Translations under genes and position numbers: made by a program
Shown: piece by piece, positions 20,765-31,622 of the stretch
How positions within the stretch are numbered: position 1 is the first letter of the stretch
Layout: every line of letters starts with the position of its first letter
The notes under the pieces: generated by a model
Seen by the model: the letters and a program-made list of their open reading frames with translations, nothing else
What the model was told of the DNA's origin: nothing
Database searches by the model: none
From: an uncultured bacterium
GTDB taxonomy: Bacteria > Bacillota_I > Bacilli_A > RFN20 > CAG-826
Direction of reading: 5' to 3'
DNA: 64,000 nucleotides
NCBI GenBank assembly: GCA_949297805.1
Contig: CASFTG010000001.1
Coordinates: 620,001 to 684,000 of the forward strand

Positions 20765-21934
<1,170 letters not shown>

Positions 21935-22037
21935 TTTGGCTCTCCTTGTTTGTCGGCGCGCGATAAGACTTCCCCTCGGCAGAGATGATCACTTCATTCC
22001 GCTTCGGAGCAGGTTATCGCCCTGCCTATGCGTCGTA

Positions 22038-22066
22038 ATTATGGACCGGGCGGAAAGCGCTTTCAA
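22038..22066 (-). promoter_or_regulatory. Promoter of msmK-pulA-amylase unit
   Basis: Minus-strand -35 TTGAAA (22061-22066), 17-base spacer, -10 CATAAT (22038-22043). Both boxes are near consensus. The leader before the msmK ATG would be about 100 bases. The -35 box lies inside the operator at 22052-22065, which would let a bound repressor block RNA polymerase. Confidence 0.75.
22052..22065. promoter_or_regulatory. CcpA/LacI-type operator overlapping the msmK -35 box
   Basis: GGAAAGCGCTTTCA contains the perfect palindrome GAAAGCGCTTTC and matches the catabolite-response consensus TGWAANCGNTNWCA at all but the first base. It could bind CcpA or a LacI-family maltose regulator (MalR), whose sites look alike. 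Confidence 0.75.
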
Positions 22067-22074
22067 GACAAAAA

Positions 22075-22088
22075 TGAAATCGCTTACA
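22075..22088. promoter_or_regulatory. CcpA/LacI-type operator, second site upstream of msmK
   Basis: TGAAATCGCTTACA matches TGWAANCGNTNWCA at every position. Its centre is 23 bases from the centre of the neighbouring site, about two helical turns, so both could be occupied on one face of the DNA. Confidence 0.75.
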
Positions 22089-22114
22089 TCGTGTTTTGGT
22101 TTTTGCTTGAAACT

Positions 22115-22133
22115 ATCTTGCCCACAGCAAGAT
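22115..22133 (+). other. Perfect stem-loop followed by a T tract in the msmK/RDD divergent region
   Basis: ATCTTGC, a 5-base loop, GCAAGAT, then TTTTT on the plus strand. It has terminator shape but lies upstream of the predicted RDD promoter. It would stop any rightward transcript coming from the msmK side, or it may be a protein-binding palindrome. Confidence 0.5.
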
Positions 22134-22140
22134 TTTTCCC

Positions 22141-22169
22141 TTGATATATCGCGCACGTACGAGCATATT
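22141..22169 (+). promoter_or_regulatory. Promoter for a predicted leaderless RDD transcript
   Basis: TTGATA (22141-22146), 17-base spacer, CATATT (22164-22169); the ATG follows 9 bases after the -10 box and no ribosome binding site is present. Transcription would begin at or within 2-3 bases of the start codon. Confidence 0.6.
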
Positions 22170-22178
22170 TATCACGTT

Positions 22179-23258
22179 ATGGAAAACAGCCTTGCCGTCA
22201 AAACCCCCACCACCGCCAAAATCATCGTTTTGGCTGGCATGTGGCGAAGGGCCTTCGCTTTTTTGGTCGATATCCTTTGCGTCCTCGCCCTCTCGGCCCT
22301 CATTTACTTCCCTTGCGTCGTCCCCTTCGCGGTCGACATGGATCGTTACAACGCCAACCGCGATCAAATCAATTCCTTGGCGATTGAGTCAGGGCTATAT
22401 TTGGATTTCAACGACTCTCCAACGAGCCCTTTATCGATGACTAGCTTCGAAACGGTTGAAGACATAACCCACAAATTAATCGTCTATGGCGGTGAACGCT
22501 ATTCTTTTTCGATGATCGATGTTCTCCATCAATATTGGACCATAACCGTTGCCGATATGGAATTTGTCGACGGCAAAAACCACGTTTATAGCGATGAGAC
22601 ATTTAAGAAAACGGTGATGAAAGTCGGAGACGAGGACTCGAATATCGAGCGTCTCCGGGTTAATGAGGATGGTTATTTGACCGTTGATTTGATCGACGAA
22701 GAAAAAGATTGGGTCGCCATCGAATACGTTTGCGACCGTTACAATGAAGCCGTGCTTTCTCTCAATGATACCGTTTTGTTCACAGAACTAGATGCCGATA
22801 ACGCGAAGATTATGCAGTTCGCGATGCTGATGGCCGTTCCGGTCCTGATTGGGTCTTGCCTAGTGTTCATGGTAGTGTTGCCGATGTGTCTTGGTGAAGG
22901 TCAATCATTGGGCAAAAAGTCAATGAAGTTGGTCGTTCTCGACGACATGGGCTATACATATAATAAATGGAAACTTATTCCGCGAAATCTTTTCTGCTTC
23001 ATCGTTGAATTCATCGGAGGCATAGCTAGTTTCGGAGCTTTGTTGCTAATTACCTATACTATGAGCATGTTCACGAAGAAGCACCGTTCGATCCATGACT
23101 ACTTGTTTGGTTCGGTCGTCGCGGATTCTGAATCCTCGCTTTGGTTCGACAACCCAGTCGAGGAGGAATTGTATAATGCGAAGAAAGCAAGGGAAGCGGA
23201 AGCCAAGGAAAAGCGTGAACGGCTAAGCAACCAAGCCAACGAACATAGGGAAGGATAG
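22179..23258 (+). CDS. RDD-family multi-pass membrane protein (first of pair)
   Basis: 359 residues of unknown function. Near the N-terminus MWRRAFAFLVDILCVLALSALIYF carries the Arg...Asp pattern of the RDD family in the first membrane helix. A polar external domain (about residues 65-210) separates it from two or three further helices (AMLMAVPVLIGSCLVFMVV, FCFIVEFIGGIASFGALLLI). A highly charged cytoplasmic tail (KKAREAEAKEKRERL) ends the protein. The open frame extends upstream to 21819, but that would overlap msmK on the other strand; the ATG at 22179 sits right after a good promoter. It is followed after 5 bases by a second gene of the same kind. By eye the pair is more A+T-rich than its neighbours. 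Confidence 0.8.
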   Translation: MENSLAVKTPTTAKIIVLAGMWRRAFAFLVDILCVLALSALIYFPCVVPFAVDMDRYNANRDQINSLAIESGLYLDFNDSPTSPLSMTSFETVEDITHKLIVYGGERYSFSMIDVLHQYWTITVADMEFVDGKNHVYSDETFKKTVMKVGDEDSNIERLRVNEDGYLTVDLIDEEKDWVAIEYVCDRYNEAVLSLNDTVLFTELDADNAKIMQFAMLMAVPVLIGSCLVFMVVLPMCLGEGQSLGKKSMKLVVLDDMGYTYNKWKLIPRNLFCFIVEFIGGIASFGALLLITYTMSMFTKKHRSIHDYLFGSVVADSESSLWFDNPVEEELYNAKKAREAEAKEKRERLSNQANEHREG

Positions 23259-23263
23259 CGACA

Positions 23264-24361
23264 ATGTCAAAGCGAAATAAGGAAGAAGACGGCGAAATTA
23301 TCTATAACGGCGATGTTGAATACGCCCATTTAGGCCAAACCCTTCTCGCTCATCTAATTGACATCGGCCTTTTGTTCATAATTTGGATCGTTGCCTATTT
23401 CGCAGTCTGCTACCCGGTTACTATTAATAACCCCGGAATCAAGTCCGCTAACGCGTATATCGATGAAATCGAGAGGTCTTTAAGGCTTAAAACCAACGAT
23501 GACCTTAGCCGGGAAGAAAAAGAAACGATAGTCAAAGATTTCTATTTCGTTGAGTTCCCCGACGAAATCAAAGACATATATATTGATGAAACCATCTACG
23601 AAGGCATTTCTTTGACTTATTACTACAACGTCCGCGTCCTAGGTTTAGAATTCGATCCTTATCCGGAATATGAGGGAACATCGCTTTATAAATACGTCAA
23701 AAACGAAGACGGAAGCTTTAATTTTGATGTAATCGGCGTACGTTCCTTCCCCGACAGCGAATTAAGCGGCCGTGGCAAAAGGGATTTGGAGGCATTATAT
23801 GACGACGCGATCGAAGGTTGCTTATACATGCTGCAATCAATCGATCAGGAATACGCGGTTGCTTATTATCACGTAACCACTTCCACTTCCTACGGAATCG
23901 CCGCCAGTTTCTCTTTCGCCTATATCTGCCTCTTCGCTATCTTGCCGTTGCTATTGAAAAACAAGGCGACGGCTGGTGAAGCCATGCTCCGATTAGGGAC
24001 GTGTCAAAAAACTGGTTATGCTGCCAAATGGTATATCGTCGAATTGCGAGCCTTAATCGGGTTCGTTTTACCGTTTTTCGGAGCCTATCTCTTCGATTCC
24101 TATTCAATCGTCTGCCTACTGATATTGCCGATATTCCTTAATTTCCTCTATCCGTTGCTCACCGGCAAAAGACAAACTCTCCTTGACACGCTATTTAGAT
24201 TGCGAGTGGTGATTAACAAAGAATCAACGATATACAAAGACGAATTGGACAAGGAATTGGCCAATCGCAATTCCTTAGCGGCTTACAAAGACCCTGACTA
24301 CGTAACGACCCTCGCTTCGACTGAAGCGATGGAAACAAAAGAAGAGGATTTGGATAACTAA
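23264..24361 (+). CDS. RDD-like multi-pass membrane protein (second of pair)
   Basis: 365 residues with the same plan as the upstream protein. A charged N-terminus is followed by helix LLAHLIDIGLLFIIWIVAYF (with the conserved Asp) and an external domain of about 140 residues rich in acidic and tyrosine residues. Three helices follow (SFAYICLFAILPLLL, LIGFVLPFFGAYLF, CLLILPIFLNFLYPLL), then a cytoplasmic tail. The two proteins look like a diverged tandem duplication that could form a heteromer. No function can be assigned; proximity to the starch genes suggests but does not show a role in transport. Confidence 0.75.
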   Translation: MSKRNKEEDGEIIYNGDVEYAHLGQTLLAHLIDIGLLFIIWIVAYFAVCYPVTINNPGIKSANAYIDEIERSLRLKTNDDLSREEKETIVKDFYFVEFPDEIKDIYIDETIYEGISLTYYYNVRVLGLEFDPYPEYEGTSLYKYVKNEDGSFNFDVIGVRSFPDSELSGRGKRDLEALYDDAIEGCLYMLQSIDQEYAVAYYHVTTSTSYGIAASFSFAYICLFAILPLLLKNKATAGEAMLRLGTCQKTGYAAKWYIVELRALIGFVLPFFGAYLFDSYSIVCLLILPIFLNFLYPLLTGKRQTLLDTLFRLRVVINKESTIYKDELDKELANRNSLAAYKDPDYVTTLASTEAMETKEEDLDN

Positions 24362-24700: not shown

Positions 24701-26314
24701 TTATTTGCCTTCGATGACTGCCAAAGAGCAAGGACCTAAGCCCAATACTCCGTTTTGCAATCGAGCTTTGAGGTTGCTGCCAGCGACCTCCTCGACGATC
24801 TGATCGCCGATTTTCCCGGAAAGATAGCATTCTGCCGATTCTTCGCCTAGATTGATGGCGACGACCAGATTCTCGTCCTCTTCCTCGCCTAACAGGCGAT
24901 AAACACAGAAATTGCTCTCGGTAACGGTTATGGCTTCCATCGTCGCATCCTTAATAAAGGGGATCGAGTTACGGACCTGCAAGAGCTTCCGATAATGATT
25001 TATAAGCGAGAAATCGCTTTTCAGCTGATCGTAAGCCCCTTTCTTCACCTGGCCGAGCGAATCGGCCAAATCGGCGTAAGCCGGTTCCGGACAGTCGCAT
25101 TCCTCGTCGTTATGCCCTTTCCCCCACACCATCGGTAAACGGCGCATCGAATCGGTCTCTTCATTGCCACGATAGCCGACCAATTCGATCTCCTCGCCAT
25201 AATAGATATAGGGGGTGCCTGGCAATAAATATATTAAATTGGCGGCGTTTTTCGAGGCATCGCCTTCAAAATAGGCACTGGCTCTATTCAAATCGTGGTT
25301 GGCAATAAAGAAAGATGGGATGGCATTGGGGTTACGCATTTTTATCTTACTGGTATAAGAAGCGCAACGCTTTGCGAAATCAGACCCAGAGTTGATGCCT
25401 TTTACCGTCTTAATGAGGGTGGTCGTTGCGGTGGAATCAACGGAATTGCCAAAAACGAAGAATGAATCGAAGTCCGATTCGTGGTATTTTAGAAAGTCGG
25501 CATCGTTATTGGTCCAGTTCTCCCCAATCAAATAGCAATCGGGGTCTTTGGCGCGGCAAACCGAGGCGATGTAATTGAGCACCTCGATATTATCTTCGGC
25601 GTTTTGCTCGCAGAAATGGCGGACGGCGTCGAAGCGGAAGCCGCTGACGCCTTTATCGATCCAAAACTCCAGGATGTTTTTCACTTCCTCCCTAAACCCC
25701 GCCGAATCCCAGTTGAATTCCGGCATATCGGGAGAGAACATGCCTAGACAATAGACCCCATCGTAAGAATGATAATTGCTCCCGCCGGAGCGAGAGAACA
25801 TATACCAATCGGCTTTGGAGTCCGCTGATTGATCGTTTTTCTTGTAATCTTCTAACGCCTCTAAGAAAAGAGGGTTATCGGGCGAAGAATGGTTGAGGAC
25901 CATATCGATGATGACCTCGATGCCATGGTCATTGAGGTTTTTGACCATGGCGGTGAATTGCTCCATCGTCCCGTAATCCGGATTGACGGCATAGTAATCA
26001 TCGACGTCATAACCATGATACGACCCGGATGGATGGAACGGCATCAGCCAAACATTAGAAACGCCGAGTTGCTGCAAATAATCGGCTTTGGCGCTGATGC
26101 CGGAAAAATCCCCGATCCCATCGCCATCGCTATCGGCAAAACTACGAACGAAAATCTCATAATACGCGGAACCGCCGACATTCGAGACGGAACCGTCGAT
26201 ATCATAATCGCCATCGCCTTTCTCCAGCCCGATCGGATTCGGAACCGATGAGCAAGAGAAAAGGCCGATGGCCAAGGGTAATAACCCCTTAAGCGGCATC
26301 AGCCTTTTTTTCAT
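24701..26314 (-). CDS. Lipoprotein alpha-amylase (GH13), operon partner of malEFG
   Basis: 537 residues from the ATG at 26314, which has an AGGAG site and gives a lipoprotein signal ending LFSC (Cys21). The open frame reaches 115 codons further upstream, but that part overlaps malG in another frame. The protein is essentially a single GH13 domain: YYEIFVRSFADSDGDGIGDF, VIIDMVLNHSS, GFRFDAVRHF (nucleophile), LIGENWTNND (acid/base) and FIANHDLNR, then a C-terminal beta domain ending SLAVIEGK. The DxDGDGIGD segment is a calcium-site pattern of amylases. Probably shortens dextrins at the membrane before uptake by the transporter encoded upstream. Confidence 0.92.
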   Translation of the reverse strand: MKKRLMPLKGLLPLAIGLFSCSSVPNPIGLEKGDGDYDIDGSVSNVGGSAYYEIFVRSFADSDGDGIGDFSGISAKADYLQQLGVSNVWLMPFHPSGSYHGYDVDDYYAVNPDYGTMEQFTAMVKNLNDHGIEVIIDMVLNHSSPDNPLFLEALEDYKKNDQSADSKADWYMFSRSGGSNYHSYDGVYCLGMFSPDMPEFNWDSAGFREEVKNILEFWIDKGVSGFRFDAVRHFCEQNAEDNIEVLNYIASVCRAKDPDCYLIGENWTNNDADFLKYHESDFDSFFVFGNSVDSTATTTLIKTVKGINSGSDFAKRCASYTSKIKMRNPNAIPSFFIANHDLNRASAYFEGDASKNAANLIYLLPGTPYIYYGEEIELVGYRGNEETDSMRRLPMVWGKGHNDEECDCPEPAYADLADSLGQVKKGAYDQLKSDFSLINHYRKLLQVRNSIPFIKDATMEAITVTESNFCVYRLLGEEEDENLVVAINLGEESAECYLSGKIGDQIVEEVAGSNLKARLQNGVLGLGPCSLAVIEGK

Positions 26315-26330
26315 GTTAATTCTCCTAAGA

Positions 26331-27260
26331 CTAGCCTTTGACCGCCCCACCGGTGACGCCAGCGACATAGTAACGCTGGGTCGCGATGAATAGAGCGGCG
26401 AGCGGAACGGAAATGAGGACCGATCCGGCAGCATAACAAGTATAGAAAGTGAGGTAGGTCGTATCGTTGGTTTTAGAATTGCCCCATTGATACAAGCCGA
26501 TCGCAACTGTCCAATTCTCCCGTTGGGGGCCGATAATATAACTCGAGGTAATATAATCCGACCACGGGCCCATGAAGGCAGTGAGAATCGTATAGACGAT
26601 GATTGGTTTAGACAAAGGAAGGATAATATCCCAGAAAATCCGAGCCCTTGAAGCGCCATCGATCATGGCTGCCTCGTCGATCGAGCGGGAGATCGTATCA
26701 AAGAAGCCTTTGGAAATGAAGAAGCCCATACCGGAGCCGGCGGAATAGATGAACACAAGCGCCCAGTAGGTACCGTCGAGATGGAAGATTTCCTTCATGA
26801 CGAGGTACATGATGATCATCGAGAGGAAGCCAGGGAACATCCCGAGAATGAGGTTAAGCTTCATAAGGATGGTCCGGCCTTTGAAACGGAACCGTGACAT
26901 CGAATAGGCAACCATCAAGACAAAGAGGGTGTTGATAATGCAGCAGATGGTAGCGACGATGAAAGTATTGAGGAACCAAGCGAGATACATCGGAATCCCC
27001 GAGGCCGTAACGCCCCACTCGGTCGAAGTCAACTCAGCATTTAGGCTGCTGCCAGGATATTCAATGCCAAATAAGAACGCGTAGTTTCGGAAAGACATCG
27101 TCTCCAATGTAGGAACGAAACGACCAGCGTCACCGGCGCTAGCACCGAACGATTGTAGGAAAAGCCAAACAAATGGAAGGATCCAGCAAACGCAGCAGAC
27201 GATGAGGATGACGTAGACGATGGTGAGGGAAAGAATCTTTGAAGCTTTTAACGATTTCAT
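26331..27260 (-). CDS. malG: Maltodextrin ABC transporter permease MalG
   Basis: One of the two membrane subunits of a maltose/maltodextrin importer. 309 residues with six predicted helices and the EAA loop DEAAMIDGASRARIFWDIILP, the contact site for the ATPase. The C-terminus, RYYVAGVTGGAVKG, is the classic MalG ending. Its start overlaps the malF stop by 4 bases (ATGA). Length is normal for MalG. Confidence 0.95.
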   Translation of the reverse strand: MKSLKASKILSLTIVYVILIVCCVCWILPFVWLFLQSFGASAGDAGRFVPTLETMSFRNYAFLFGIEYPGSSLNAELTSTEWGVTASGIPMYLAWFLNTFIVATICCIINTLFVLMVAYSMSRFRFKGRTILMKLNLILGMFPGFLSMIIMYLVMKEIFHLDGTYWALVFIYSAGSGMGFFISKGFFDTISRSIDEAAMIDGASRARIFWDIILPLSKPIIVYTILTAFMGPWSDYITSSYIIGPQRENWTVAIGLYQWGNSKTNDTTYLTFYTCYAAGSVLISVPLAALFIATQRYYVAGVTGGAVKG

Positions 27261-30199
27261 TGGAACTGATCCTCCCTAGAGATAGCGCTCGACCGGTTGT
27301 ACATGACAATCGAGACGAAGGCGCATATGACGAAGACGATAATGCCAATTACCGATGCTAAGCCATATTCGCGAGTTGAATTGGTAACTACCAACTTATA
27401 GATGTAAGTAACCAGCAAGTCCGTTTGACCTGGCGCATTAGCGACCGCGGTTTTCCCGGCCGGGCCACCACCAGTAAGGAAGTAGATAACACCGAAGTTA
27501 TTGATGTTGCCAATGAAGGTCTGAATAAGCGACGGCCCAGTAACGAAGAAGATGTAAGGTAAAGTGATCTTGGTGAATTGGGTAACAGTCCCGGCGCCAT
27601 CGATCTTTGATGATTCGTAGAGATCTCGAGGGATGTTCATCAATATACCCGAAGTCTGAAGAATCGTATATGGGACGCCGTGCCAGAGATTGATAAGAAT
27701 AATGAGGACTTTGGTCCGCAAGACATCAGAATCACTAGAACCAGTGGAAGCAGCGAAATTAAGTTTCGAACCGGTTATATCAAAGTATAGGTTGGCAACT
27801 GCACCGATATCGTTCTTGAGAAGTAAAGCTACAGCCATCAAGGTAACGAAGCTCGGGACAGCGATCGAAAGCATGAAGCAGAAACGGAAGACTTTCTTAA
27901 ACTTGATGCCTTCTTTATTGATCATCAAAGCAAAGATGATACCAAGGAAGTAGCAAGAGAAAGTCGCACAGATTGCCCATACAAAGGTCCAAATAATAGT
28001 TCCGGATAGCAAATCCATTAATGTGGATCCGCTTCCGCGGAACAAACGGGCCCAGTTCTCAAGACCAACCCAGTTAAACCCTTGAGCCATCAAGTTGTGG
28101 TCGGTGTCATAGTTGGTGAAAGCGACCAAGATGGAAAGAGCCAACGGCATAATAGTGAAGAAGAGTACGCCAAGGATTGGCAAGAAAAGAAGAGCCATGT
28201 GGAAATTCTCATCTAGCAGTGAAGAAATCTGTTCTTTGACAGTCCGCGGCGCGCCATCGAACTTTGTTGGTTTGCTGGCAACATAATCGCCGCGATATTT
28301 GGAAAGTTCTTCCACCTTAGCGGCAACCTCTTGTTCGGATAGCCGCTTTTCGGCAACATACTTTTTGACCATCGAATACGCAAATTTGAATTCAACGCCA
28401 TGATCGACGATCATTTTGTTGGCGGCGCAATACAAAGCGTATTCCTCGGCGGTGTAGTCGGTCTTAAGCCCCTTGAAGTCTCGCTTGTAAGCGCGAACTA
28501 CGTTGCTTAAGTCTTCTTTACGCGATTTTTTGACCTCTTTCTTAGAGGGAAGAGATAGCACTTTGCCTTTAACGGTTTTCAAATTATAGGCACAAACGGC
28601 TTTGGCTTCGGCAATTTTGGCTTTTTTCTCATCATCGGAAAGGGAACCGTCAGCGTTAACAGAGGCAATCGTTTCCTTAAGAATCCGTTTTTCGTTATCC
28701 CCTTCGCCAAGAATCGAAGCGCGGCGATTCTCGATGCCGTCAAACTGCTTATTGATCTCTTCGATTTTAGCCTTGGTTTGTTGAGTCAACTCATCTCGAG
28801 CCCGGAGGTTATCCTCGTTGGCTGATTGATAAGTCGCAAGACCTTGCTCATAGGCATCGACCAAATCCTTATAATTCCGGTAGAAAATTAAATCGGTATC
28901 GGTCTTAGCAAGAACTTTGTAATAAACGTTGAACTTGCCGTATTTCGATTGGTTGTCAACGGAATCGATAGTCGAGAAGGACAAGTTGTTTTTCAGCATG
29001 TCCTCAATGCTCGTATCGACTAAACGCAGTTTTTCCTCAAGCTTATCAATCTTATCTTGCTTCTTTTGCTTGGCAGCCACGTATTTGTTGGAAGCGACAA
29101 TCTTTTTAAATTGAGCTTTACTAAACAGTTTTTTGGCCGTTTTCAATTCTTCGGCACGAGTGTTGCGCGATTCGGCTGGCATCGCGGCGATTTCGTCAGA
29201 GACCTTGCTAAGCGATTCCCTGGCTTCAACAAAAGTAGTATAAGTCGAATCGTTGGCTTCTTTCAAAGCGGCGATTTTATCATTAGTGGTCGCGTCATTA
29301 ACAATTCGATCGATTTTCGCCTCGAGTTTAGATTTTTTGGCTTCGAGTTTTTGAAGCTTTAAATGGAAATCGCGACGATAGCTGATGGTCGAATCCAACA
29401 CATAATTGAAATACTTAAGATCAGTTTGATCTGGAAGCCCAGTTTTCTCGTCGGTTTTGGCCTTTTCGGAAAGCTTCGCATAGACATCCGCGTATCTTTC
29501 CTTCAACTCCTTGGTCGAATAATTGTACAAATTGTTTTTAGCGATATCGGAATCGATAAGGTCCGAATAAGGTTTAGAGACTTCGCTCCGACGATTGAAA
29601 TCATCGAAATGGTCAATGCGGTAATTTTTGTAACCGGAATCGATGGACTTTCGCCAAATAAAGAAGAAAAGGAAAATGGAAAGGAGCCACAAAACCGCAT
29701 AGATCATGATCAACAGGGAATTGTCCGGCGGTACCCGACCCAAAACGGGATCGTCATACGACGCATCAACTTCACCTAAAGATCCAAGATCGTAAATACA
29801 TCCTGTTCCAAAGACGAAGAAACAGACGACGTAAACGATTTCGAAAATCAAATAAAGAGCGCCGTTCAAATACCGCTTATGGGTAAAGCTGGAAGTCCCG
29901 AAAACAACGAAATTAAGGCGTCCGGCCCAATCGTTGAACCGGAATTTGTGCCCAATAGATTTCAAGGCTTTCCAAACGGCAATAAGTCCTTTAGTAAACA
30001 GCTTGTAAACGACAATGCAAGCGTTCCAAAGAGCCTTGAAGATATCCAAGATAAAACAAACTACCCAAAGAACGACGCCTTTTACCACCCGCCAAATCGC
30101 CCCGGAAATCCAAGCGTAAGCAGGCAGATAGTCGTCATTACGGGAAAGGGCTTTTAGTTCATCCTGGTTCAGCGACTGCTGAATGTCCTTTTCTTCCAT
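27257..30199 (-). CDS. malF: Maltodextrin ABC transporter permease MalF with large helical insertion
   Basis: 980 residues, about twice the size of E. coli MalF (514). The C-terminal third (about 665-970) is an ordinary MalF core with six helices and an EAA loop (YESSKIDGAGTVTQFTKITL). The N-terminus has hydrophobic helices at about 30-75, 111-133 and 161-182 around a segment reading SSFTHKRYLNGALYLIFEIV. Between about 215 and 645 lies a Lys/Glu/Asp-rich, mostly helical region with likely coiled coils (KLQKLEAKKSKLEAKIDRIV, KQDKIDKLEEKLRLVDTSIE) and no membrane helix. The ATG at 30199 has a GGAG site; an upstream in-frame start exists but is less well placed. Its side of the membrane is uncertain. 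Confidence 0.88.
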   Translation of the reverse strand: MEEKDIQQSLNQDELKALSRNDDYLPAYAWISGAIWRVVKGVVLWVVCFILDIFKALWNACIVVYKLFTKGLIAVWKALKSIGHKFRFNDWAGRLNFVVFGTSSFTHKRYLNGALYLIFEIVYVVCFFVFGTGCIYDLGSLGEVDASYDDPVLGRVPPDNSLLIMIYAVLWLLSIFLFFFIWRKSIDSGYKNYRIDHFDDFNRRSEVSKPYSDLIDSDIAKNNLYNYSTKELKERYADVYAKLSEKAKTDEKTGLPDQTDLKYFNYVLDSTISYRRDFHLKLQKLEAKKSKLEAKIDRIVNDATTNDKIAALKEANDSTYTTFVEARESLSKVSDEIAAMPAESRNTRAEELKTAKKLFSKAQFKKIVASNKYVAAKQKKQDKIDKLEEKLRLVDTSIEDMLKNNLSFSTIDSVDNQSKYGKFNVYYKVLAKTDTDLIFYRNYKDLVDAYEQGLATYQSANEDNLRARDELTQQTKAKIEEINKQFDGIENRRASILGEGDNEKRILKETIASVNADGSLSDDEKKAKIAEAKAVCAYNLKTVKGKVLSLPSKKEVKKSRKEDLSNVVRAYKRDFKGLKTDYTAEEYALYCAANKMIVDHGVEFKFAYSMVKKYVAEKRLSEQEVAAKVEELSKYRGDYVASKPTKFDGAPRTVKEQISSLLDENFHMALLFLPILGVLFFTIMPLALSILVAFTNYDTDHNLMAQGFNWVGLENWARLFRGSGSTLMDLLSGTIIWTFVWAICATFSCYFLGIIFALMINKEGIKFKKVFRFCFMLSIAVPSFVTLMAVALLLKNDIGAVANLYFDITGSKLNFAASTGSSDSDVLRTKVLIILINLWHGVPYTILQTSGILMNIPRDLYESSKIDGAGTVTQFTKITLPYIFFVTGPSLIQTFIGNINNFGVIYFLTGGGPAGKTAVANAPGQTDLLVTYIYKLVVTNSTREYGLASVIGIIVFVICAFVSIVMYNRSSAISREDQFQ

Positions 30200-30311: not shown

Positions 30312-31622
30312 TTAGACGCGCTTAGAAGGATCGGTGAGGGTCTCGGTAGCGGTCTTGAGGTAAGCTTGCCACTGTTCAAGAGTGGTGTATTTCTGAGTGT
30401 CGCTGACCCCGCCCTGCATGATGGTCCGGCCAATGGCTTCGCCAGGAGTCCAGTAAAGCCCCTCGACCAAGGTTTGGGCGGCCCCATACGGCTCTTGAGC
30501 CTGTAAACCAGCAACAGCCGGGGTGATATGCTCGGTGAAGCGAGGATCTTCAGCAGCTTCCTTGTTAGAAGGAGTGGAGGAACGCTTTTCATAACGGACG
30601 AGCTGAGCTTCTTTGGTGGTCAAAATCTGAGCGACCTTATGGGCAAGAGCCTGTTCTTCGGCTTTGGCGAAGGCATTGACGCAGTAGACTTTCGAGCCGA
30701 CGAAGGAAGCCATTTGGCAAGCGGTCGGTTCAGAGTCACCCTCAAAGGTAACATTGAAGGTGGGAAGTTTGGCCGTGCCGACATTCTCTTCGCCCCAGTC
30801 AGCCTTGAGTTCCTCGTAAACCCAGGTGCCGGAGATGCAGGAGATAAGTTTGCCAGCTTTCGCTTGGTTCGCGATAGCGGTGTTATCGCCTTCGATAAAA
30901 ATGCTCCTGTCCTTGGCCGCGTAAGGAGCTACTAAAGCGGAGAAATCCCTAGCGGCAGCGGCGCCAATTTCGCCATCCCACTCCATATCGTAGACAACGG
31001 TGCCGTCTGCCTCGGTGTGATAGGAAATGCCATCAGAAGTTCCGAGGACTTCCGGAGAAAGGAAAATGCCAGCGGAATAATAGCCATTGTCGAGGTCAAG
31101 AAGGAACTGCTTGCCCTTGGTTTCGCAGATATTGAGAATCGATTCGAAAGAACCGATTTCATTTTCCTTTAATTCTCTCTTGTCATAATAGAGGAAGTAG
31201 CCGTTATCGACGGAAATCGGATAAGCATACATTTTGCCATCGATGGTGGTGGTCAAAACGGCCGATTCAGAGTTTTCCGCGGTGACTTTCTTGGCGACAT
31301 CATCCGGAAGAGAGGCGACGACTTTGGTGGTGTGGACCATGTCCGGAAGAGACGAGTCAACAACCGCGTAAAGCGACGGATAGTTGGCTTGCTGCGGATC
31401 TTTTTCGAGTTCGCCAGAAGCAACCCCTTCCTCAATGGCGCGGAAGCCCCATTCGATTTGGTCATCGGGGTTGGCTTTGTTGTAATCGCCGAGAACTTGC
31501 TCGATGACCGCCTTTTCTTCAGACGGAGCCCAAATGATGAAACCCGGCTGCTTGTTGCAGGAAGCGAGCGAGCCAGTTCCAAGGACAGCGAGGGCCGCAA
31601 GGCCCAAGTAAGCTTTCTTCAT
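30312..31622 (-). CDS. malE: Maltodextrin-binding lipoprotein MalE
   Basis: The extracellular solute-binding protein that delivers maltodextrin to MalF-MalG. 436 residues; signal peptide ending SLASC (Cys22), so anchored as a lipoprotein. Features of the MalE family include FIIWAPSEEKAVIEQVLGDYNKANP near the mature N-terminus, a YAYPISVDNGYFLYYDK segment and GKLISCISGTWVYEEL (compare GKAAMxxxGPW). First gene of the malE-F-G-amylase operon. An AAGGAG site lies about 12 bases before the ATG. The long 5' leader and the operators upstream suggest tight control. Confidence 0.93.
   Translation of the reverse strand: MKKAYLGLAALAVLGTGSLASCNKQPGFIIWAPSEEKAVIEQVLGDYNKANPDDQIEWGFRAIEEGVASGELEKDPQQANYPSLYAVVDSSLPDMVHTTKVVASLPDDVAKKVTAENSESAVLTTTIDGKMYAYPISVDNGYFLYYDKRELKENEIGSFESILNICETKGKQFLLDLDNGYYSAGIFLSPEVLGTSDGISYHTEADGTVVYDMEWDGEIGAAAARDFSALVAPYAAKDRSIFIEGDNTAIANQAKAGKLISCISGTWVYEELKADWGEENVGTAKLPTFNVTFEGDSEPTACQMASFVGSKVYCVNAFAKAEEQALAHKVAQILTTKEAQLVRYEKRSSTPSNKEAAEDPRFTEHITPAVAGLQAQEPYGAAQTLVEGLYWTPGEAIGRTIMQGGVSDTQKYTTLEQWQAYLKTATETLTDPSKRV

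Follow-up and report, generated by a model that had tools for sequence, protein, structure and literature searches.

The maltose transporter MalFGK2 is the reference system for ATP-binding cassette (ABC) import, and to our knowledge its extra parts are all understood either as outer-face elements (P2) or as separate cytosolic regulators. In this study, we examined a MalF permease encoded in a 64,000-nucleotide stretch of DNA (the window) from an uncultured bacterium of the GTDB lineage Bacillota_I; Bacilli_A; RFN20; CAG-826 (assembly GCA_949297805.1, contig CASFTG010000001.1, positions 620,001 to 684,000). We found it to be a real, well-defined, lineage-specific MalF variant with an orphan domain, an insert that resembles no known protein in the searches run (Pfam, NCBIfam, PDB sequence and PDB fold). 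The protein shares its permease core, EAA loop and fold with E. coli MalF (PDB 2R6G, 3PUZ, 9BCR). E. coli MalF, however, has its large additional domain, P2, in the periplasm, after the third transmembrane helix (TM3), whereas the present protein lacks P2 and has its extra domain before TM3, in the cytoplasm. Ordinary Firmicutes permeases of the MalF/MdxF type (about 440-585 amino acids) have the same N-terminal helix, transmembrane (TM) hairpin, core and malE-malF-malG-GH13 gene order, but connect hairpin to core by 15-17 residues, against 465 here.

Two further systems bear comparison. Licht et al. are said to have described, in 2019, a MalE-MalF fusion transporter in which, as here, a maltose permease and an additional domain form a single chain; there the addition is the binding protein, at the outer face, whereas here it is an orphan helical domain at the inner face. 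In EIIAGlc-bound MalFGK2 (PDB 4JBW), a cytoplasmic element likewise sits beside the maltose transporter, but EIIAGlc is a separate protein of the phosphotransferase system (PTS) and is absent from this genome, and the insert showed no likeness to it in sequence or fold in the searches run. A conserved cytoplasmic domain of 200 to 980 residues within MalF, with a motif that persists although the remaining sequence diverges past recognition, would mean that the E. coli model leaves out some of the transport cycle or of its regulation in an abundant gut group.

The malF gene, at 27257-30199 on the minus strand, is a single open frame of 980 codons plus a stop, with its ATG at 30199 and its stop at 27257-27259; the start is backed by homologues whose sequences open with the same MEEKD and by an upstream GGAG. 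Residues 704-965 of the 980-amino acid product match the MalF profile (NCBIfam PRK10999, E 3e-45), and BPD_transp_1 (PF00528) is matched at 74.7 bits against a gathering score of 26.4. The score for the PRK10999 equivalog, which represents enterobacterial-type MalF, is 154.8 bits, below the curated cut-off of 392 bits, as expected because this is a distant Gram-positive member. Compared with E. coli MalF, the core gives a phmmer E-value of about 2e-38, and its fold aligns with 9bcr_H at a VIA-align Z of 20.4 over 210 residues. The loop that contacts MalK, the EAA loop, is intact (ESSKIDGAGTVTQFTKITLP, residues 862-881), in agreement with an earlier note on this DNA, made from the sequence alone, which had described both the core and the ATPase-contact loop as preserved. 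The N-terminal TM hairpin is common to ordinary Gram-positive MalF/MdxF-type permeases. The parts of the protein, from its N-terminus, are as follows.

27257..30199 (-): malF, the whole permease including the insert, 980 codons plus stop
29936..30199 (-): residues 1-88, N-terminal amphipathic/hydrophobic helical stretch, with a shorter form in ordinary homologues
29645..29872 (-): residues 110-185, N-terminal TM hairpin (TM1 about 117-135, TM2 about 163-181)
28256..29611 (-): residues 197-648, the insert, a cytoplasmic all-helical domain (as predicted) in place of a 15-17-residue loop
28991..29428 (-): residues 258-403, arm 1, long helices
28805..28990 (-): residues 404-465, hub part a, conserved
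28922..28942 (-): residues 420-426, YGKFNVY, the motif [YF][DGAE][KR][YF]N.[YF] with invariant N424
28553..28804 (-): residues 466-549, arm 2, variable, with length differences near 505-525 and near 535
28265..28552 (-): residues 550-645, hub part b (LPSKKEVKKSRKEDLSNVVRAYKRDFKGLKTDYT...)
28196..28264 (-): residues 646-668, linker or elbow into the core, with invariant G649 and P651
27260..28195 (-): residues 669-980, MalF permease core, its first helix being E. coli TM3, without a P2 loop
27557..27616 (-): residues 862-881, EAA (MalK-contact) loop

Loop length was taken as the distance between hairpin and core profiles, both built from ordinary members, with ordinary relatives drawn from a public genome set and from whole genomes of the genus, family, order and class. 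Its distribution is bimodal: the 465 residues of the window protein fall among the 203-983 of its clade, while in over 80 ordinary MalF homologues of Bacilli/Clostridia the loop measures 15-17. The insert begins directly past the second hairpin helix and extends to the conserved Gly in the linker that leads into the core. The extra helical mid-protein region proposed in the earlier note is borne out, with its limits moved from 215-645 to about 197-648. The region is, as had also been claimed, charged (among its 449 residues are 86 Lys plus Arg and 76 Asp plus Glu, besides 5 Pro and 11 Gly), and since the Kyte-Doolittle mean is at most 0.51 in every 19-residue window of 197-650, it holds no membrane segment. 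An origin by repeat expansion or slippage was rejected: malF contains a single 20-base two-copy repeat only, and the insert is close in composition to the remainder of the gene (GC 0.43 versus 0.45-0.46).

The side of the membrane follows from the position of the insert relative to the core. By phmmer, the first core helix (675-706) aligns with TM3 of E. coli MalF (GLFVLFPLVCTIAIAFTNYSS), which places the insert before the TM3-equivalent helix, in what is the TM2-TM3 connection of E. coli. In the established topology of MalF, TM3 starts in the cytoplasm and runs outward; the insert that precedes it is therefore cytoplasmic. Counted back from the EAA loop in this way, the placement is independent of how many N-terminal helices cross the membrane, contrary to the suggestion that either side was possible, and it excludes the external stalk that had been put forward. 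The distribution of charge fits the positive-inside rule, with one Lys or Arg in the 27-residue outer hairpin loop versus more than 90 in the insert including its flanks. Past the first core helix the region is short, and the roughly 150-residue P2 loop of E. coli, periplasmic and MalE-binding according to titles cited in PMC3328499, has no counterpart here. We regard this anatomy of the insert-bearing MalF as close to certain.

Intact long-insert MalFs were found in about 40 species across two public genome sets, with the insert always inside malF. A search of related genomes with insert profiles, as the earlier note had advised, used two insert groups and matched malF frames only, and this order only (395 and 296 genomes of the class). 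Among the organism names of matched public records are uncultured Bacilli or Erysipelotrichaceae of gut origin and Candidatus Alloenteromonas. In a tree of the core alone, carriers of inserts of at least 200 residues form one side of a branch (98/98, and 100% of 200 bootstrap trees; 58 rows, careful tree search), and a quick core tree of 121 rows gives the same branch a support of 99; both trees were made without the insert and are unrooted. Gain of the insert is the simpler reading of these unrooted trees because the loop is short in every ordinary MalF from outside the order, and within the insert clade no return to a short loop was seen. It is thus very probable that the insert was gained once, at the base of one maltodextrin-importer clade in an order of uncultured gut Bacilli.

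The motif is present in 38 of 40 distinct inserts, whereas across 2000 shuffled sets it averaged 0.05 and never exceeded 2, a comparison that overstates the surprise because the motif was spotted by eye before counting. The contrast with ordinary MalFs, in which it occurs in 0 of 83, is unaffected by this; none of the independently gained small inserts described below has it either. Profile-profile comparison of the two main insert groups failed (hhalign probability 2%, no confident alignment), and their common descent is argued from the shared motif, the tree and bridging members that match the clade-2 profile (L163 at 5e-30, L057 at 4e-4 and L154 at 0.05). Hub part a shows zero indels across 32 inserts, whereas the arms have many; the tip of arm 1 (about 303-341) is the most variable and least conserved part of the insert, and the relatives L142/L143 have more than 100 additional residues there. 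Relative to L041, which is 72% identical in the insert, we estimated 0.19 nonsynonymous and 0.82 synonymous changes per site, the latter being saturated, hence no ratio of the two is given. The insert changes at about twice the rate of the core, near that of the hairpin, and as judged from these sequence comparisons it is kept by strong purifying selection.

Inserts of the clade differ widely in size. The largest member, L141 (genome G031), is a 1514-amino acid MalF with a 983-residue insert that keeps the motif (EYDKYNIY), and the smallest inserts, in L154 and L163, keep it in about 200 amino acids. A second, smaller charged insert (55-189 residues) arose separately at the same site in four relatives (99/96) from another clade of the same family, where it forms a graded size series (L166, L167, L169 and L170; genomes G173, G174, G169 and G122); these inserts are probably helical. 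Four MalF-like permeases of class family f16 (L181-L184, 786-827 amino acids) carry about 350 extra residues between the hairpin helices, that is, on the outer face, in a segment that is unrelated to the window insert and lacks the motif. Long charged N-terminal extensions ahead of the hairpin (up to about 220-300 residues) occur in L185, L164, L165, L168 and L162/L092.

AlphaFold modelling of the full window protein (32 sequences) predicted an insert that is almost all helical, with a predicted local distance difference test score (pLDDT) of about 72-92, mostly above 80, against 38-78 for the core; a clade-2 insert modelled alone (L173; 13 sequences) reached a mean pLDDT of 90.7 and a predicted template modelling score of 0.74. 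Both models place the motif at the junction of two helices, with its Asn at a one-residue break that bears a DSSP bridge mark, and in both the linker Gly has the only other late bridge mark (N424/G649 and N142/G343). From these marks, the models somewhat favour a clasp between the motif Asn and the invariant linker Gly.

Searches for relatives of the insert gave little. Against Pfam and NCBIfam, only sub-threshold matches were obtained (Takusan, 14 bits; DUF7609, 11.9 bits), and as no model of either collection covers the insert, it does not belong to an already described type of common MalF. With insert profiles, a PDB sequence search returned only the Ndc80 coiled coil (E 0.013) and RNase A (0.5). 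The PDB fold search with the window insert yielded generic long-helix matches only; for F-BAR/BAR domains, Foldseek gave E-values of 0.3-1 with a probability of up to 0.69, and VIA a Z of about 10 over parts of arm 1, which is the chance range for long helices. The clade-2 insert had no Foldseek match below E 0.97, and its VIA Z of up to 7.0 (a 77-residue GyrA piece) is within chance. Such an insert is undescribed in the full-text literature searched, the coverage of which leaves out most subscription papers. It is possible that the insert represents a new protein domain, new also in its fold, which evolved once in uncultured gut Bacilli and equips a textbook ABC importer used in starch uptake with its own cytoplasmic module for control or docking; we hold this full statement to be doubtful.

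The best explanation overall, on which our judgement is evenly divided, is a lineage-specific cytoplasmic helical domain that would give the importer a platform for docking or regulation. Its functional step, a platform situated beside MalK, is proposed more tentatively. The domain comprises helical arms, which differ in length between species, and a conserved hub (404-465, 550-668). If, as the two models suggest, the Asn clasps the linker Gly at the entry to the first core helix, the hub would be held on the inner face of the membrane, beside the transporter; near MalK and the TM3 elbow, it would lend the transporter stability or act as a gate on its cycle, while the arms would bind one another or bring in a partner from the cytosol. 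As the same transporter occurs naturally with and without the domain in one order, a clean test is available.

Several points weigh against such a platform. It has no known partner, ligand or activity, and comparison of carrier neighbourhoods with ordinary loci revealed only local, lineage-bound neighbours peculiar to carriers and no partner gene; the hub could be purely structural and partnerless. The N424-G649 pairing is a reading of DSSP letters, the residues flanking the motif vary, and the two motif exceptions (L144/L145 or L118/L119) read YGSFNKFY. With regard to the arms, heptad enrichment in arm 1 helices is not clearly above shuffles (0.055-0.13, the best being 0.055), and neither is that in other helices; the coiled-coil-like character ascribed to the region is only partly supported, by its long helices.

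Among the alternatives, we consider autoregulation rather unlikely: in this reading, the insert would respond to a sugar or metabolite in the cytosol by blocking or allowing the MalK cycle, in place of EIIA/HPr control. The insert lies on the MalK side, adjoining the TM3 elbow, and EIIAGlc-bound E. coli MalFGK2 (PDB 4JBW), as cited in PMC7756565, shows that regulation is possible at this face. Moreover, the window genome (94% complete) has no match to HPr and none to EIIA_1 (PF00358), although the latter was matched in 5 of 14 controls; by these sequence matches it probably lacks a sugar phosphotransferase system. With HPr and EIIA missing, an EIIA-type regulatory arm, one of the roles first considered, is unsupported, and PTS-type regulation in its known form is ruled out for this genome. 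Replacement of PTS control by the insert was also rejected, since the presence of HPr across 279 genomes is unrelated to it: about 12 of 40 carriers have HPr (a hand tally), and most HPr-less members of the order have no insert. Nor was a ligand-binding fold recognised in the fold searches.

A self-association or localisation device, in which the arms act as spacers in transporter clusters or in a pole or cytoskeleton anchor, appears to us no likelier than autoregulation. The helices are long and charged, the arms are variable in length and poorly conserved, and other Bacilli MalFs separately gained charged helical N-terminal extensions or the smaller same-site insert, as if such additions were repeatedly useful. 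Yet the periodicity of the arms, not significantly above shuffles, and the stronger conservation of the hub argue against this, as do L154 and L163, which leave little room for arms and nevertheless keep the motif. Near-neutral accretion, whereby the loop tolerates added helices and the hub only keeps the segment folded clear of transport, is quite improbable: several unrelated MalF accretions exist in the class, the insert diverges fast and the motif appears, in the models, to clasp the segment to its own exit linker, but the insert is retained in all those species without reversion, selection on it appears strongly purifying, and about 450 residues are costly in genomes of 1.0-1.7 Mb. Finally, the possibility that a frameshift or a misassembly joined two neighbouring genes, with such a frameshift named beforehand in the earlier note as refuting, is itself refuted and has next to no probability, for nothing in the window and only a split frame within the insert of one relative (L068/L022) speaks for it, and intact long frames in about 40 species, with the insert never outside a malF frame, exclude it.

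With respect to the neighbouring genes, insert-bearing malF is always found in a malE-malF-malG-GH13 operon across carriers, and a larger GH13 (about 900-1050 amino acids) frequently comes next. The following belong to the locus in the window.

30312..31622 (-): malE-type lipoprotein binding protein
26331..27260 (-): malG, its start overlapping the malF stop (ATGA)
24701..26659 (-): GH13 amylase frame
20765..21934 (-): MalK/MsmK-type ATPase with OB_MalK and TOBE_2 domains

The true start of the GH13 amylase is probably internal to its frame, at the lipoprotein signal MKKRLMPLKGLLPLAIGLFSC. A cytoplasmic scaffold, the remaining role offered in the earlier note, may apply, but the tethering of an amylase by the insert, which had been suggested with it, is unlikely because the GH13 enzymes of the operon are lipoproteins on the outer face. 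The GH13 enzyme downstream of malG is a predicted lipoprotein at insert and ordinary loci alike and is therefore no distinguishing mark of insert loci; a special link to a surface amylase was rejected on this ground.

The window genome encodes a second MalF (L172, 505 amino acids) without an insert, and a different ABC permease frame (C1:101747-102304, L002) of 732 amino acids, unusually long for its family. In L068/L022 (genome G021), malF is broken into overlapping frames within the insert, which we attribute either to a frameshift or to faulty assembly of this one genome. Two adjoining genes for RDD-family membrane proteins (21819-24361, plus strand) face the mal operon; of 34 insert loci, about 10 have relatives of these genes next to the operon, compared with 0 of 72 ordinary loci, a co-occurrence that may be mere shared ancestry. 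In several carriers (L045, L142, L150 and others), a small lipoprotein of about 165-196 amino acids with a GSHWNDWTPD-like start is encoded between the ATPase and malE, and looks like a surface sugar-binding protein.

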